Source: Nitrospira sp. (GTDB lineage Bacteria > Nitrospirota > Nitrospiria > Nitrospirales > Nitrospiraceae). Taken from it: a DNA stretch of 34,331 nucleotides. Under the pieces are notes generated by a model, which saw only the letters and a program-made list of their open reading frames with translations, made no database searches and was not told the DNA's origin. Shown one piece after another: positions 24,685 through 31,953 of this stretch. The number at the start of each line of letters is the position of its first letter. The first letter of the stretch is position 1. A program made the translations under genes and the position numbers. The stretch is taken from the NCBI GenBank assembly GCA_029881435.1, contig JAOUMR010000028.1:1-34331 (forward strand), given 5' to 3'.

Positions 24685-24759
24685 TGGAGCGGGAAAAGGG
24701 ATTTGAACCCTCGACCCTCGCCTTGGCAAGGCGATGCTCTACCACTGAGCTATTCCCGC
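24685..24759 (-). tRNA. tRNA-Gly (anticodon GCC)
   Basis: Read on the - strand, a GCGGGAA acceptor arm pairs with TTCCCGC, followed by T and an encoded CCA. The D-arm is AGCTCAGTGGTAGAGC, the anticodon arm TCGCC-TTGCCAA-GGCGA gives anticodon GCC, and the T-arm contains GGTTCAAATCC. It is a complete cloverleaf. It lies convergent to the TgpA-like gene, upstream of the nxr control region. Confidence 0.96.
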
Positions 24760-25073
24760 TCGAGAGGTCTGAAGGTTCGGAGTGTACTGAGCTATCAGTA
24801 TCGTGTCAAGCTACGAATCCGATCGGATCAAGTACGTTGATTCAGTACAGTCACTTGGAGTCATCCAGTCTTGGGTCCGTTCCCTTCCGCGAATAGGTTA
24901 CCGTATCGTAACGTCATGAGTGTGATGTGGCGGTACTGCGCTCAACATATCAAAATAATAGGGATTATCATCATACAAATGGCAGGTAGACATCATGGTC
25001 TGAAAAGAAATGCTACGCAAGCTACCCATCAATAGACCAGAGATGACCGTCAATTCTAAAGAGAGCCGACCAA

Positions 25074-25114
25074 AATACTCATTGTGTTTTTAGGCGTTTA
25101 GAATACTCATTGGG
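25074..25114 (+). repeat. two direct repeats upstream of the nxr promoter
   Basis: AATACTCATTGTG (25074-25086) and AATACTCATTGGG (25102-25114) differ at one base and are 28 bases apart. They lie roughly 50-90 bases upstream of the start site predicted from the sigma-54-like element, a position suited to an activator. Confidence 0.6.
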
Positions 25115-25138
25115 TAATTATGGACGCTGGATTCATAA

Positions 25139-25154
25139 TGGCGCAGATATTGCG
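25139..25154 (+). promoter_or_regulatory. sigma-54-like -24/-12 promoter element for nxrA
   Basis: TGGCGCA-GATA-TTGCG matches the sigma-54 pattern TGGCACG-N4-TTGCW at 9 of 12 defined positions, with the essential GG and GC and exact spacing. The predicted start near 25165 would give a leader of about 260 bases. Match read by eye; no RpoN gene is visible in this window. Confidence 0.45.
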
Positions 25155-25165
25155 AACATTTTTTA

Positions 25166-25194
25166 TTGCAACATATTGTTCCAAATGGTATATG
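25166..25194 (+). promoter_or_regulatory. alternative sigma-70-like promoter for nxrA
   Basis: TTGCAA, a 17-base spacer and TATATG (25189-25194), four of six matches in each hexamer. An interrupted inverted repeat GC-AACA-tat-TGTT-CC-type (25168-25182) overlaps the -35 and spacer and could be an operator. It competes with the sigma-54 reading. Confidence 0.38.
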
Positions 25195-25260
25195 CCACAC
25201 CGCATGTAACTTTAAGTGGAAAGAAGAGAATAGACGTAGAAGAGATTTAATCGCGACTTT

Positions 25261-25294
25261 TGATGAGTCACAACAGATGATGAGTCACAACAGA
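25261..25294 (+). repeat. exact 17-bp tandem duplication in the nxrA leader
   Basis: TGATGAGTCACAACAGA occurs twice back to back (25261-25277 and 25278-25294), 133 bases before the nxrA start. The unit contains ATGAGTCA, a partly symmetric core. Confidence 0.92.
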
Positions 25295-25426
25295 TTTGAA
25301 AGATTATTCCCCTTGGGATGGTAAGCGTTTAATCTCGATAGAAGGTTGTCCTGAGGGAGAATCGAAGAGAAATCGCAAAGCAACGATGATTCACGCAAGC
25401 TTATAATCGTCGAGGAGGTATCAACA

Positions 25427-28400
25427 ATGTTCTTGTCACGTCGACAATTTTTGAAAGTTTCTGCTGGCACAGTTGCTGCCGCAGCCGTGGCAGATAACGT
25501 TCTGGCGTTGACGGCGCTCCAGCCAGTTATCGAAGTCGGCAACCCCTTGGGGGATTATCCTGACCGATCGTGGGAGCGTGTCTATCACGATCAATATCGT
25601 TACGATTCATCCTTTACATGGGTTTGTTCCCCGAACGACACACACGCCTGTCGCGTCCGTGCGTTTGTGCGGAACGGTGTGGTTATGCGTGTGGAACAAA
25701 ACTACGACCACCAAACCTATGAAGATTTATACGGAAATCGAGGCACGTTCGCGCACAACCCACGGATGTGCCTGAAAGGATTTACCTTTCATCGGCGGGT
25801 GTACGGACCGTATCGGTTGAAGGGGCCATTGATGCGGAAGGGTTGGAAGCAATGGATGGATGACGGATCCCCAGAGCTTACCCCAGAAACAAAGCGAAAG
25901 TACAAGTTCGACAGTCGGTTCCTCGACGATATGCTCCGGGTGTCGTGGGATACGGCTTTCACCTATGCAGCCAAGGCGATGATTGTGATTGCCACCCGAT
26001 ATAGCGGGGAAGCCGGAGCGCGGCGTCTGCGAGAGCAAGGCTATGCACCAGAAATGATTGAAATGATGAAGGGTGCCGGGACCAGGTGCTTTAAGCACCG
26101 CGCTGGGATGCCGGTCCTTGGTATTGTCGGTAAGATGGGCAATACGCGCATGAACGGTGGAATCAACGCATTGCTGGACACCTGGATTCGTAAGGTTGGT
26201 CCTGATCAAGCACAGGGTGGACGGTACTGGTCGAATTACACCTGGCACGGAGATCAAAATCCCTCTCAGCCATTCTGGTCCGGTGTTCAAGGGTCGGACA
26301 TTGACTTGTCAGACATGCGCTTCTCGAAGTTAAACACCAGCTGGGGTAAAAATTTCGTCGAAAATAAAATGCCGGAGGCCCACTGGAAATTGGAGTGTAT
26401 CGAACGCGGTGCCCGCGTCGTCGTCATCACCCCAGAGTACAACCCAACTGCGTATCGTGCTGACTACTGGATGCCCTTGCGTCCTGAGTCAGATGGTGCA
26501 CTCTTTTTGGGCGCCCTGAAAATCATCATCGACGAAAACATGCACGACACTGATTTTCTGAAGCAATTTACCGACGCTCCCATCCTGGTGCGTACGGATA
26601 CGTTGCAATACCTGGATCCACGCGATGTCATCGCAGACTACAAGTTCCCGGATTTCTCGAAGAGCTATTCGGGCCGTATTCAATCGTTGAAGCCCGAGCA
26701 AATTCAGCGTTTGGGCGGGATGATGGTCTGGGATCTTAACAAAAAGCAGGCCGTCCCACTCCATCGGGAGCAGGTTGGCTGGCATTACATCAATAGCGGC
26801 ATCGATGCGGCCCTCACCGGCAGCTATCGGGTGAAACTACTCAACGGGCGGGAAATCGATGCGATGCCGGTCTGGCAGATGTACCTCGTTCACTTCCAAG
26901 ATTACGATCTGGACACAGTCCACCAAATCTGCCGTACACCAAAGGATCTCATCGTACGGTGGGCAAGGGACTCCGGCACGATTAAGCCGGCCGCGATTCA
27001 CAATGGCGAAGGGGTCTGCCACTATTTCCACATGACGCCGAATGGGCGAGCAGCTGCGATGGTCCTCATCATCACCGGTAACGTCGGAAAGTTCGGCACC
27101 GGACAGCATACCTGGGCAGGGAACTACAAAGCCGGGACATGGACAGCTACACCCTGGTCCGGCGCTGGTCTCTCGGTCCATACCGGAGAAGACCCATTCC
27201 ATATCACGTTGGATCCCAACGCGCATGGAAAGGAAATTAAGACCAAGTCCTACTATTACGGTGAGGAAGTCGGCTATTGGAATCACGGTGATACAGCTCT
27301 GATTGTCAATACGCCTAAGTATGGCCGGAAAGTATTCACCGGTAAGACCCACATGCCAACACCCAGCAAGCTTCGCTGGGTGGTCAACGTCAACGTGCTG
27401 AATAATGCAAAGCATCACTACGATATGGTGCGTAACGTGGATCCGAACATCGAATGTCTTATCACGCAGGACATCGAGATGACGTCCGATGTGAATCACA
27501 ACGACATTGCATTCGCCTGTAACTCCTGGATGGAATTTACCTATCCGGAAATGACCGTGACGGTCTCCAATCCGTGGGTTCAGATCTGGAAGGGTGGTAT
27601 TAGGCCGTTGTACGACACCAGAAACGACCTTGACACTTTCGCTGGAGTCGCCGCGAAGCTCTCCGATATGACGGGCGACAGACGGATGCGCGACTACTTC
27701 GCGATGGTCTATGCCAACCGTGTCGATGTGTACGCCCAGCGTATGCTCGATGCCTCGAGCACATTCTATGGCTACTCTGCCGACGTCATGCTCAAGTCGG
27801 AAAAAGGCTGGATGGTTATGGTCCGCACATACCCGCGCCATCCGTTCTGGGAAGAGACCAACGAGTCGAAGCCAATGTGGACCCGCAGCGGTCGATACGA
27901 GAACTATCGTATCGAACCTGAGGCCATTGAATACGGGGAAAACTTTATCTCCCATCGTGAAGGTCCTGAAGCGACGCCGTATCTGCCAAATGCTATCTTC
28001 ACGACGAATCCCTATTGCAGACCGGATGACTACGGTATCCCAATCACTGCACAACACCACGATGATAAAACAGTGCGCAACATCAAGTTGTCGTGGCACG
28101 AAATCATGCGTCATTCTAATCCCTTGTGGGAGAAGGGCTACCAGTTCTACTGTGTCACCCCGAAAACGCGCCACCGTGTCCATAGTCAATGGTCGGTGAA
28201 TGACTGGGTTCAAATTTACGAATCTAATTTCGGCGATCCCTATCGAATGGATAAGCGGACGCCAGGGGTGGGCGAACACCAGATCCATATCAACCCCCAG
28301 GCGGCCAAAGACCGAGGCATCAACGACGGCGACTATGTGTACGTCGATGGCAACCCGGTTGACCGACCCTATCGAGGGTGGAAACCAAGCGATCCCTACT

Positions 28401-28864
28401 ACAAAGTGGCCCGGTTGATGATTCGTGCGAAGTACAACCCGTCTTATCCGTACCATGTCACTATGGCAAAACATGCGCCGTTCGTTTCAACGCCAAAGTC
28501 GGTGAAAGGACATGAAACCAGACCTGATGGACGGGCCATCGCGATCGATACCGGCTATCAGTCCAACTTCAGGTATGGAGCACAGCAGTCCTTTACGCGT
28601 AATTGGCTCATGCCAATGCACCAAACTGACTCCTTGCCTGGTAAGCATGCCGTCGCTTGGAAGTTCAAGTGGGGTTACCAGGTCGATCACCATGCGATCA
28701 ACACAGTCCCGAAGGAATGTCTGATCCGTATTACCAAAGCGGAAGACGGCGGCATTGGCGCTCGAGGTCCATGGGAACCAGTCCGCACCGGCTTCACGCC
28801 CGGTCAGGAAAATGAGTTTATGATCAAGTGGCTAAAGGGTGAACACATCAAGATTAAAGTCTAA
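25427..28864 (+). CDS. nxrA: nitrite oxidoreductase alpha subunit NxrA
   Basis: This protein (1145 aa) is the catalytic molybdo-bis-PGD subunit that oxidises nitrite to nitrate, the energy-yielding step of nitrite oxidizers. The N-terminus SRRQFLKVSAG is a twin-arginine motif followed by an Ala-rich hydrophobic stretch, so the complex is probably periplasmic, as known for Nitrospira. The FS0 cluster motif is C67-x3-D71-x3-C75-x39-C115, with Asp where NarG has a Cys. YTWHGDQNPSQPFW (~271-284) holds the likely Mo-ligand Asp276, judged by position against NarG. The type II DMSO reductase fold continues to KIKV. Its length fits Nitrospira NxrA. A consensus AGGAGGT ribosome site sets the start. 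It is followed by a hairpin and nxrB. Confidence 0.96.
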   Translation: MFLSRRQFLKVSAGTVAAAAVADNVLALTALQPVIEVGNPLGDYPDRSWERVYHDQYRYDSSFTWVCSPNDTHACRVRAFVRNGVVMRVEQNYDHQTYEDLYGNRGTFAHNPRMCLKGFTFHRRVYGPYRLKGPLMRKGWKQWMDDGSPELTPETKRKYKFDSRFLDDMLRVSWDTAFTYAAKAMIVIATRYSGEAGARRLREQGYAPEMIEMMKGAGTRCFKHRAGMPVLGIVGKMGNTRMNGGINALLDTWIRKVGPDQAQGGRYWSNYTWHGDQNPSQPFWSGVQGSDIDLSDMRFSKLNTSWGKNFVENKMPEAHWKLECIERGARVVVITPEYNPTAYRADYWMPLRPESDGALFLGALKIIIDENMHDTDFLKQFTDAPILVRTDTLQYLDPRDVIADYKFPDFSKSYSGRIQSLKPEQIQRLGGMMVWDLNKKQAVPLHREQVGWHYINSGIDAALTGSYRVKLLNGREIDAMPVWQMYLVHFQDYDLDTVHQICRTPKDLIVRWARDSGTIKPAAIHNGEGVCHYFHMTPNGRAAAMVLIITGNVGKFGTGQHTWAGNYKAGTWTATPWSGAGLSVHTGEDPFHITLDPNAHGKEIKTKSYYYGEEVGYWNHGDTALIVNTPKYGRKVFTGKTHMPTPSKLRWVVNVNVLNNAKHHYDMVRNVDPNIECLITQDIEMTSDVNHNDIAFACNSWMEFTYPEMTVTVSNPWVQIWKGGIRPLYDTRNDLDTFAGVAAKLSDMTGDRRMRDYFAMVYANRVDVYAQRMLDASSTFYGYSADVMLKSEKGWMVMVRTYPRHPFWEETNESKPMWTRSGRYENYRIEPEAIEYGENFISHREGPEATPYLPNAIFTTNPYCRPDDYGIPITAQHHDDKTVRNIKLSWHEIMRHSNPLWEKGYQFYCVTPKTRHRVHSQWSVNDWVQIYESNFGDPYRMDKRTPGVGEHQIHINPQAAKDRGINDGDYVYVDGNPVDRPYRGWKPSDPYYKVARLMIRAKYNPSYPYHVTMAKHAPFVSTPKSVKGHETRPDGRAIAIDTGYQSNFRYGAQQSFTRNWLMPMHQTDSLPGKHAVAWKFKWGYQVDHHAINTVPKECLIRITKAEDGGIGARGPWEPVRTGFTPGQENEFMIKWLKGEHIKIKV

Positions 28865-28956: not shown

Positions 28957-30246
28957 ATGCCTGAAGTATATAACTGGCAACTGGGACGGAAGATGTTGTA
29001 CCCATATGAGGAACGACATCCCAAGTGGCAGTTTGCCTTCGTCTTCAATATCAATCGGTGCTTGGCGTGTCAGACCTGCAGTATGGCTGACAAGTCGACC
29101 TGGCTCTTCTCAAAGGGACAGGAATACATGTGGTGGAATAATGTGGAGACCAAGCCCTATGGCGGTTACCCACAGTTCTACGACGTCAAAATCACACAAC
29201 TGATCGAACAGGTTAATCCAGGTGGACAGGTCTGGAACGTGCGCGTCGGTCGGAAACATCATGCCCCCTATGGTGTCTTTGAAGGGATGACCATCTTCGA
29301 CGCAGGCGCCAAAGTCGGGCAGGCGGCCATCGGCTATATTCCCACAGACCAGGAGTGGAGATTTGTCAACATCTATGAGGATACCGCCACGTCGATGCGA
29401 GCCCTTGTTGAGGGTATCGATAAGACCGGCTTTTCCCGTGATGAGCCATGGAAGATGACCGGCAGCAGTCTTCCGGAACACGAAACATTCTTCTTCTATC
29501 TCCAGAGAATTTGCAACCACTGCACCTATCCAGGCTGCTTGGCAGCGTGCCCTCGAAAGGCCATCTATAAAAGGCCTGAAGATGGAATTGTTCTGATCGA
29601 TCAGAACAGATGTCGTGGGTACAAAAAGTGCGTGGAACAGTGTCCCTACAAGAAGCCTATGTATAGAGGCACCACCCGCGTCAGCGAAAAATGTATCGCC
29701 TGTTATCCTCGTATCGAGGGTAAAGATCCGTTAACCGGTGGTGAGCCGATGGAAACACGCTGTATGGCGGCCTGCGTTGGAAAGATTCGCATGCAGAGCC
29801 TTATGCGCATCGGGGACGATGGGCTGTGGGCTGAGGATCGCTGGCACCCACTCTACTATGCCATCCGTGTGGAGCAAGTAGCCTTGCCGCTCTATCCGCA
29901 ATGGGGGACAGAGCCAAACGGTTTCTACATCCCACCACGGCACTCACCCAGAGGGTATGCTCGGCAGATGTTCGGTCCAGGTGTCGACAATGCGATTGAA
30001 AAGTACCTGGTGCCAAGCCGCGAGTTGCTGGCCGTGCTCCAGCTCTGGAGAGCGAGCCAACAGATCGTGTTCCGCTATGACGTCATTCCAGGGCCGAAAG
30101 TGTTTGAAACGCAAATTCACGGTAAGCGCTTCGAGATGTATAACGATACAGTGTTGGGCTTCAACAAATCAGGCAAGGAAGTGGCACGTGTTCAAGTTGA
30201 AGAGCCAATCTATATTAGGCCTGCGGAACGGGTGACCTGGCTATAA
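28957..30246 (+). CDS. nxrB: nitrite oxidoreductase beta subunit NxrB
   Basis: This protein (429 aa) is the electron-transfer subunit carrying electrons from NxrA to the membrane subunit or cytochrome c. Four Cys motifs are present in NarH-like order: CLACQTCSMAD (residues 35-45, with Asp where NarH has its fourth Cys), CNHCTYPGCLAACP, CRGYKKCVEQCP (Tyr in the slot that marks a [3Fe-4S] cluster), and CIACYPRI with ETRCMAACVGKIR. There is no signal peptide, so it is probably exported with NxrA through Tat. GGAGGGG precedes the ATG. No gamma subunit gene lies next to it; NxrC must be elsewhere. A terminator-like hairpin follows. Confidence 0.96.
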   Translation: MPEVYNWQLGRKMLYPYEERHPKWQFAFVFNINRCLACQTCSMADKSTWLFSKGQEYMWWNNVETKPYGGYPQFYDVKITQLIEQVNPGGQVWNVRVGRKHHAPYGVFEGMTIFDAGAKVGQAAIGYIPTDQEWRFVNIYEDTATSMRALVEGIDKTGFSRDEPWKMTGSSLPEHETFFFYLQRICNHCTYPGCLAACPRKAIYKRPEDGIVLIDQNRCRGYKKCVEQCPYKKPMYRGTTRVSEKCIACYPRIEGKDPLTGGEPMETRCMAACVGKIRMQSLMRIGDDGLWAEDRWHPLYYAIRVEQVALPLYPQWGTEPNGFYIPPRHSPRGYARQMFGPGVDNAIEKYLVPSRELLAVLQLWRASQQIVFRYDVIPGPKVFETQIHGKRFEMYNDTVLGFNKSGKEVARVQVEEPIYIRPAERVTWL

Positions 30247-31836: not shown

Positions 31837-31953
31837 CGACGGCACTCCTCGGTTAGGGTCACGCATCAAACGTAACAAGCGTGTAACACATCGACTCATC
31901 CCACACCCATATTGACTCAACGTGTTAGGAATACAAAAAGAATGCGAGGGGCT

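Follow-up and report, generated by a model that had tools for sequence, protein, structure and literature searches.

The window, that is the whole stretch of 34,331 nucleotides of Nitrospira DNA analyzed here, carries the genes for the alpha and beta subunits of nitrite oxidoreductase (Table 1). In soils, waters and treatment plants, much of the oxidation of nitrite is due to Nitrospira. The nxrA reading frame encodes 1145 amino acids with a molybdopterin oxidoreductase domain, is followed by the gene for the iron-sulphur subunit, and has orthologs of 95-98% identity in other Nitrospira genomes, including that of N. moscoviensis. Its ATG at 25427 is preceded by a Shine-Dalgarno-like AGGAGG at 25413-25418, and the intergenic region upstream of it measures 668 bp. 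No activator gene was found near nxrA among the annotated genes of the window, and no Rfam leader element was found in the nxrA leader. The leader does contain a tandem duplication, of TGATGAGTCACAACAGA, which is absent from the aligned relatives.

Table 1. Features of the nxr locus, in coordinates of the window
Feature	Position	Strand	Basis or remark
tRNA-Gly (gcc), divergent neighbour, boundary of the intergenic region	24685..24759	-	ARAGORN, Rfam
GTTACCGTATCGTAAC, dyad GTTAC-N6-GTAAC, candidate enhancer (upstream activating site)	24897..24912		inverted-repeat enumeration, conservation
Direct repeat AATACTCATTGKGTNNTTA, contains TACTCA	25074-25092 and 25102-25120	+	19-bp repeat
Candidate -24/-12 (sigma-54) promoter element TGGCGCAGATATTGCG	25139..25154	+	sequence, order-wide conservation
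Predicted sigma-54 transcription start	25165	+	12 bases past the C of the -12 GC; from geometry only
Sigma-70-like bipartite element TTGCAA-N17-TATATG, TG before the second hexamer	25166..25194	+	conservation limited to close relatives
Exact 17-bp tandem repeat TGATGAGTCACAACAGA in the nxrA leader	25261..25294	+	
nxrA, nitrite oxidoreductase alpha subunit	25427..28864	+	N-terminal TAT signal, molybdopterin domain
nxrB, nitrite oxidoreductase beta subunit	28957..30246	+	

The -24/-12 element and the sigma-54 machinery

The original prediction placed a sigma-54-like promoter at TGGCGCAGATATTGCG, and the details on which it was based are borne out by the sequence: the element has the exact GG-N10-GC geometry (GG occupies 25140-25141 and GC 25152-25153), it ends 273 bases before the nxrA ATG, and it contains both the TGGC and the TTGC box of sigma-54 promoters, for which a consensus of TGGCAC-N5-7-TTGCT has been given (PMC12316311). 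Scored with a generic sigma-54 matrix, which was composed from general knowledge of the consensus and not from a published table, the element reaches 13.6 of 19.1, a score that one in 2000 dinucleotide-shuffled versions of the last 330 bp also attains, as do five in 2000 when the whole 668-bp intergenic region is shuffled. Counted with one mismatch allowed, TGGC-N7-TTGC as such is not enriched in the window (34 occurrences vs 31 by chance), and since the loose pattern is thus about as frequent as chance would have it, the letters alone prove little. Taken alone, the element is therefore only modestly significant.

The genome from which the window comes (3.7 Mb, 99.85% complete) contains one intact copy of rpoN, the gene whose absence the original prediction had named as grounds for giving up the reading. 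The RpoN protein has a glutamine-rich region I, a DNA-binding domain and the RpoN box ARRTVAKYR, and it is accompanied in this genome by about two dozen sigma-54 activator genes and by four genes of the HU/IHF family. Only five sites in the whole genome match the strict consensus TGGCAYR-N4-TTGCW, and all five are followed by a correctly oriented open reading frame starting 33-203 bp on, some of the genes being flgF-, fliL- and lpxC-like by sequence. As flagellar-like genes are among those that follow the strict sites, the sigma-54 of this organism appears to recognize the usual consensus.

Conservation across Nitrospirales and competing promoter readings

About 50 genomes of the order supplied upstream DNA of nxrA genes, which was grouped into 50 clusters, two rows being joined when they shared at least 150 identical bases in 330; one member of each cluster was scored, and sites that reached at least 9 in the 330 bp before the nxrA start counted as hits. 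In this comparison, which had been proposed together with the original prediction, GG-N10-GC proved to be conserved in 36 of the 50 divergent clusters (2.5 in shuffles, with a maximum of 5), and no cluster (0/50) had the element on the reverse strand. With the same two half-matrices set at each of the other spacings between N6 and N15, the number of clusters with a hit fell to 1-5. An anchored alignment revealed strong conservation for TGG and TTGC only, with flanks that are near-random, and the distance from the element to the ATG varies between about 114 and 288 bases, so that mere inheritance of one unaltered stretch from a common ancestor does not explain the pattern. It is this order-wide conservation, with its GG-N10-GC geometry, that makes the element more than a chance occurrence. 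The bases after TGG are often C/T-T-C/T-G instead of C-A-C-G.

Of the 52 genomes whose nxrA upstream DNA was usable, 44 have at least one nxrA with the element and 8 have none; the 44 comprise 28 of 32 genomes of the window's family, 15 of 17 of family f3 and 1 of 3 of family f2. Diverged second nxrA copies in some of these genomes (L068, L070, L073, L075 and L077) lack the element and serve as an internal control. At one further locus (L040/L079, genome G054), similarity of the nxrA frame begins only at residue 3, and the DNA upstream of it is seemingly unrelated, possibly owing to an assembly join or an altered start.

Strong conservation is by itself no proof of sigma-54 binding, and the conserved GG-N10-GC could also be the site of a transcription factor instead of a promoter. 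We consider this extremely improbable, because the letters are those of sigma-54 promoters and were matched by a matrix made for sigma-54, because the pattern is not a dyad and occurs on one strand only, and because it is accompanied, at the usual distance, by an enhancer-like dyad and in places by an IHF-like site.

A more concrete competitor is the sigma-70-like alternative that the original prediction had noted just downstream, and which is indeed present (TTGCAA at 25166-25171, 17 bp, TATATG at 25189-25194). If nxrA were transcribed from a sigma-70-type promoter, with a start near 25201, GG-N10-GC would be incidental or a minor second promoter. This reading draws on six aligned close relatives in which TTG(C/A)(A/G)A and TG-N-TATATG are invariant on both sides of a 17-18 bp spacer with divergent letters, and on the constant distance of 46-48 bp that separates TG-N-TATATG from the -24 T in four clusters. 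However, the second hexamer is without the last-position T in all aligned cases, the motif occurs in none of the other clusters, where both the dyad and the -24/-12 element are retained, and a sigma-70 promoter leaves both the remote dyad and the fixed GG-N10-GC unexplained. T at the last position of the -10 hexamer is nearly obligatory in sigma-70 promoters. Judged by the sigma-70 criteria (TTGACA/TATAAT, 16-18 bp, A2 and T6 of the -10), the window's element lacks T6, and TTGCAA-N17-TATATG is not listed by the sigma-70 rule of the scanner. Transcription of nxrA from a sigma-70-type promoter in place of the sigma-54 one thus seems quite unlikely.

A combination of the two, compatible with the best explanation, would be a pair of tandem promoters in this subclade only, the sigma-54 promoter being regulated and the sigma-70-like one providing basal transcription. 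In the close relatives of the window, the two elements are conserved side by side at a constant distance from each other, the sigma-70-like one lying 12 bp downstream, but its -10 hexamer is poor and it could instead belong to the early transcript; we therefore regard tandem promoters as conceivable, with the odds somewhat against them.

The upstream dyad and its link to the -24/-12 element

The candidate enhancer GTTACCGTATCGTAAC stands outside the coordinates of the original prediction. It was recognized by enumerating exact 5+5 inverted repeats in the solo clusters, i.e., those for which no activator gene was found in the upstream stretch (n = 27): GTTAC-N6-GTAAC occurs in 11 of them, and the next best repeat in 2. 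Of the 27 solo clusters, 23 have the dyad with at most one mismatch between -260 and -195 relative to the -24 T, including all 17 from the window's family; among the 23 other nxrA clusters, a one-mismatch dyad is found in three only. Controls with 59 permuted dyads gave 0-1 clusters, as did other gap lengths, gap 6 alone being conserved. The copy in the window is exact, and the sole other match with fewer than two mismatches lies at 31872. Neither a convincing intergenic sigma-54 site nor a dyad was found at the nxrC/TorD/cytochrome cluster or in the ammonium transporter region, and the module is thus not shared with nxrC here. As far as can be read from sequence, the dyad and the -24/-12 element form a classic enhancer-promoter arrangement.

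The DNA between dyad and promoter contains, in other clusters, an IHF-like site defined as WATCAA-N4-TTR with no more than one mismatch. It is present in 17 of 36 clusters, lying either between -41 and -38 or between -52 and -50 (0.5 in shuffles, with a maximum of 4). The two positions differ by one helical turn, and the sites belong mostly to family f3; at these fixed offsets, the site is absent from the window itself. The window has the direct repeat AATACTCATTGKGTNNTTA in this region and, with it, two copies of TACTCA, a hexamer found at -112 to -125 (about -114) in 11 clusters of the window's family. A seven-mer search across families gave nothing above shuffles, TACTCA being present in the window's family only. 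AATACTCATTGKGTNNTTA and its TACTCA may possibly mark a second protein site.

A combined scan for dyad and promoter in 84,980 species returned 26 places. Ten of these are in Nitrospira, nine of them directly before nxrA; the 16 outside Nitrospira fit chance, as 10-20 random matches are expected by a rough estimate. The tenth Nitrospira match, in Nitrospira sp. BO4, lies before the gene for a 409-aa predicted outer-membrane protein (a call made by reading the sequence of a protein without a Pfam match), which is followed by a chlorite dismutase gene. This BO4 locus (L203 3135-3388 and 3665-5920, JAMPUU010000020.1) is on the contig that also carries nxrA. From dyad to -12 box, the second copy spans 273 bp and is 73% identical to the organism's own nxrA promoter, and the similarity ends one base past the -12 TTGCG. 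Similarity that extends from dyad to promoter and then stops so sharply indicates that the two were moved as a unit by evolution, which provides good evidence that they are a functional unit, and it suggests that the outer-membrane protein and chlorite dismutase genes of BO4 belong to a regulon shared with nxrA.

Candidate activator and proposed circuit

Activators encoded next to nxr genes elsewhere fall into two main clades, one NtrC-like (N. moscoviensis nxrA_2 to nxrA_5) and one of GAF type, and the window's genome contains no close orthologs of these nxr-adjacent activators of its relatives. Some genomes of the order have few activators, namely two each in G086 and G093 and four each in G046 and G076. 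The sole activator orthogroup common to these four genomes, to G063 and G049 and to the window's genome is an NtrX-like response regulator (tree support 100/100), although G086, G093 and G049 are only 90-92% complete and an activator could be missing from each. Its gene in the window's genome is located on contig C35, away from nxrA, and adjoins a kinase gene with PF19312 NtrY_N, HAMP, PAS, HisKA and HATPase_c domains, an arrangement with synteny in six other genomes. The activator loop reads GAFTGA in the orthologs and GSFTGA in the copy of the window's genome, and the DNA-reading helix is nearly identical across families.

NtrYX systems have been described in Paracoccus, Brucella, Neisseria and Sinorhizobium (PMC9409073, PMC9223101, PMC7240162), and as they act elsewhere on denitrification and respiratory genes (PMC9409073), a nitrite-related role fits. 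The candidate pair resembles NtrYX in the NtrY N-terminal region, HAMP and PAS domains of the kinase and in a regulator that scores best with the NtrX model. It differs in that this score, 522.9 bits, is below the equivalog cut-off of 600, in that its linkage to nxr comes by elimination only, and in the dyad. Sites of NtrX in Alphaproteobacteria are CAA-N2-5-TTG or GCA-N9-TGC (PMC9223101), and GTTAC-N6-GTAAC fails to match them, which argues against NtrX as the reader of the dyad, or at least gives it no support; nor does the dyad match any described activator site that could be identified. The NtrX-like protein, arrived at by elimination, may be the activator at the solo nxrA loci, at odds that we would put not far below even.

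There is about an even chance that this role is filled instead by lineage-specific activators or by a GAF-domain NifA-like protein (encoded in the window's own genome on C4 or C30), an alternative that concerns the activator step alone and leaves the promoter reading unaffected. Other nxrA copies own neighbouring activators of two distinct clades, and the GAF activator on contig C4 has orthologs of 73-89% within the window's subclade; it has none, however, in many element-bearing genomes, the retention of one dyad across families suggests one reader, and the genomes with two or four activators have only the NtrX-like one in common. One activator of GAF type (L009) was considered as a universal reader and rejected, its orthologs stopping at the subclade. 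G086 and G093, which are compact and belong to family f3, with two activators found in each, one of them NtrX-like, may be useful as minimal sigma-54 systems.

Whichever activator acts, we conclude that TGGCGCAGATATTGCG is very probably the core of a sigma-54 promoter for nxrAB within a trans-activated dyad circuit. Strong support for the originally claimed sigma-54 promoter of nxrA comes from rpoN, the conserved GG-N10-GC and the dyad, with the reservation that a second promoter or basal transcription is possible in this lineage. The promoter would drive nxrAB from a start near 25165, so that the leader would measure about 260 nt. The sigma-54 form of RNA polymerase would wait in a closed state at the -24/-12 element until an AAA+ activator acts, and an activator dimer bound to the dyad, about 230-260 bp upstream, would contact the polymerase through a presumed DNA loop and open the promoter using ATP; in other families, the IHF-like site may bend the DNA between dyad and promoter. 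The activator would be supplied in trans, the best candidate being the NtrX-like response regulator beside the NtrY-like kinase, with both its identity and its signal being putative. Under such control, nxr might switch off completely in the absence of nitrite, as the original prediction proposed.

This arrangement is like that of the enhancer-dependent sigma-54 promoters of the nif, gln, flagellar and phage-shock types in its GG-N10-GC, its TTGC, its remote dyad and, in many relatives, its IHF-like site. Unlike these, it would drive the central energy enzyme of a chemolithoautotroph, and in contrast to the usual sigma-54 systems the enhancer of nxrA is rather far away, about 230-280 bp from the start. 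We thus describe a well-supported sigma-54 promoter at an unusually important gene, together with a new, still unproven candidate circuit; no paper describing the -24/-12 element or the dyad of nxrA was found in a literature search that lacked most subscription journals. More tentatively, a single sigma-54 module (GTTAC-N6-GTAAC, bend site and -24/-12 element) might serve nitrite oxidation throughout the order, being read in trans by one conserved NtrYX-type system and copyable to other genes, e.g., that of the outer-membrane protein with chlorite dismutase downstream, which would thereby join the regulon. Searching for the module offers a route to the rest of the nitrite-oxidation regulon, and a conserved promoter and enhancer at loci without a neighbouring regulator provide exact sites and a short list of activators for direct testing.

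The action of sigma-54 regulators on nxr has so far been inferred from neighbouring regulator genes (PMC6606698, PMC7522533), and neither nxrAB_1 of N. moscoviensis nor the single nxrAB of N. inopinata has such a neighbour (PMC6606698). The dyad and the -24/-12 element are nonetheless present at N. moscoviensis nxrAB_1 (L046/L060), and the locus in the window resembles this nxrA_1 in having the dyad and no neighbouring regulator. The N. moscoviensis paralogs with adjacent sigma-54-dependent regulators (PMC6606698) have sigma-54-type elements upstream too (nxrA_2 and nxrA_5), but differ in lacking a conserved dyad and in having a regulator gene 0.4-0.5 kb upstream of nxrA. The elements of nxrA_5 and nxrA_2 (L061 and L064), next to an NtrC-like activator, read TGGCACA-N3-CTTGTA, with GT in place of GC, at -149 and -114, respectively, and nxrA_5 is the strongly expressed copy in N. 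moscoviensis (PMC6606698).
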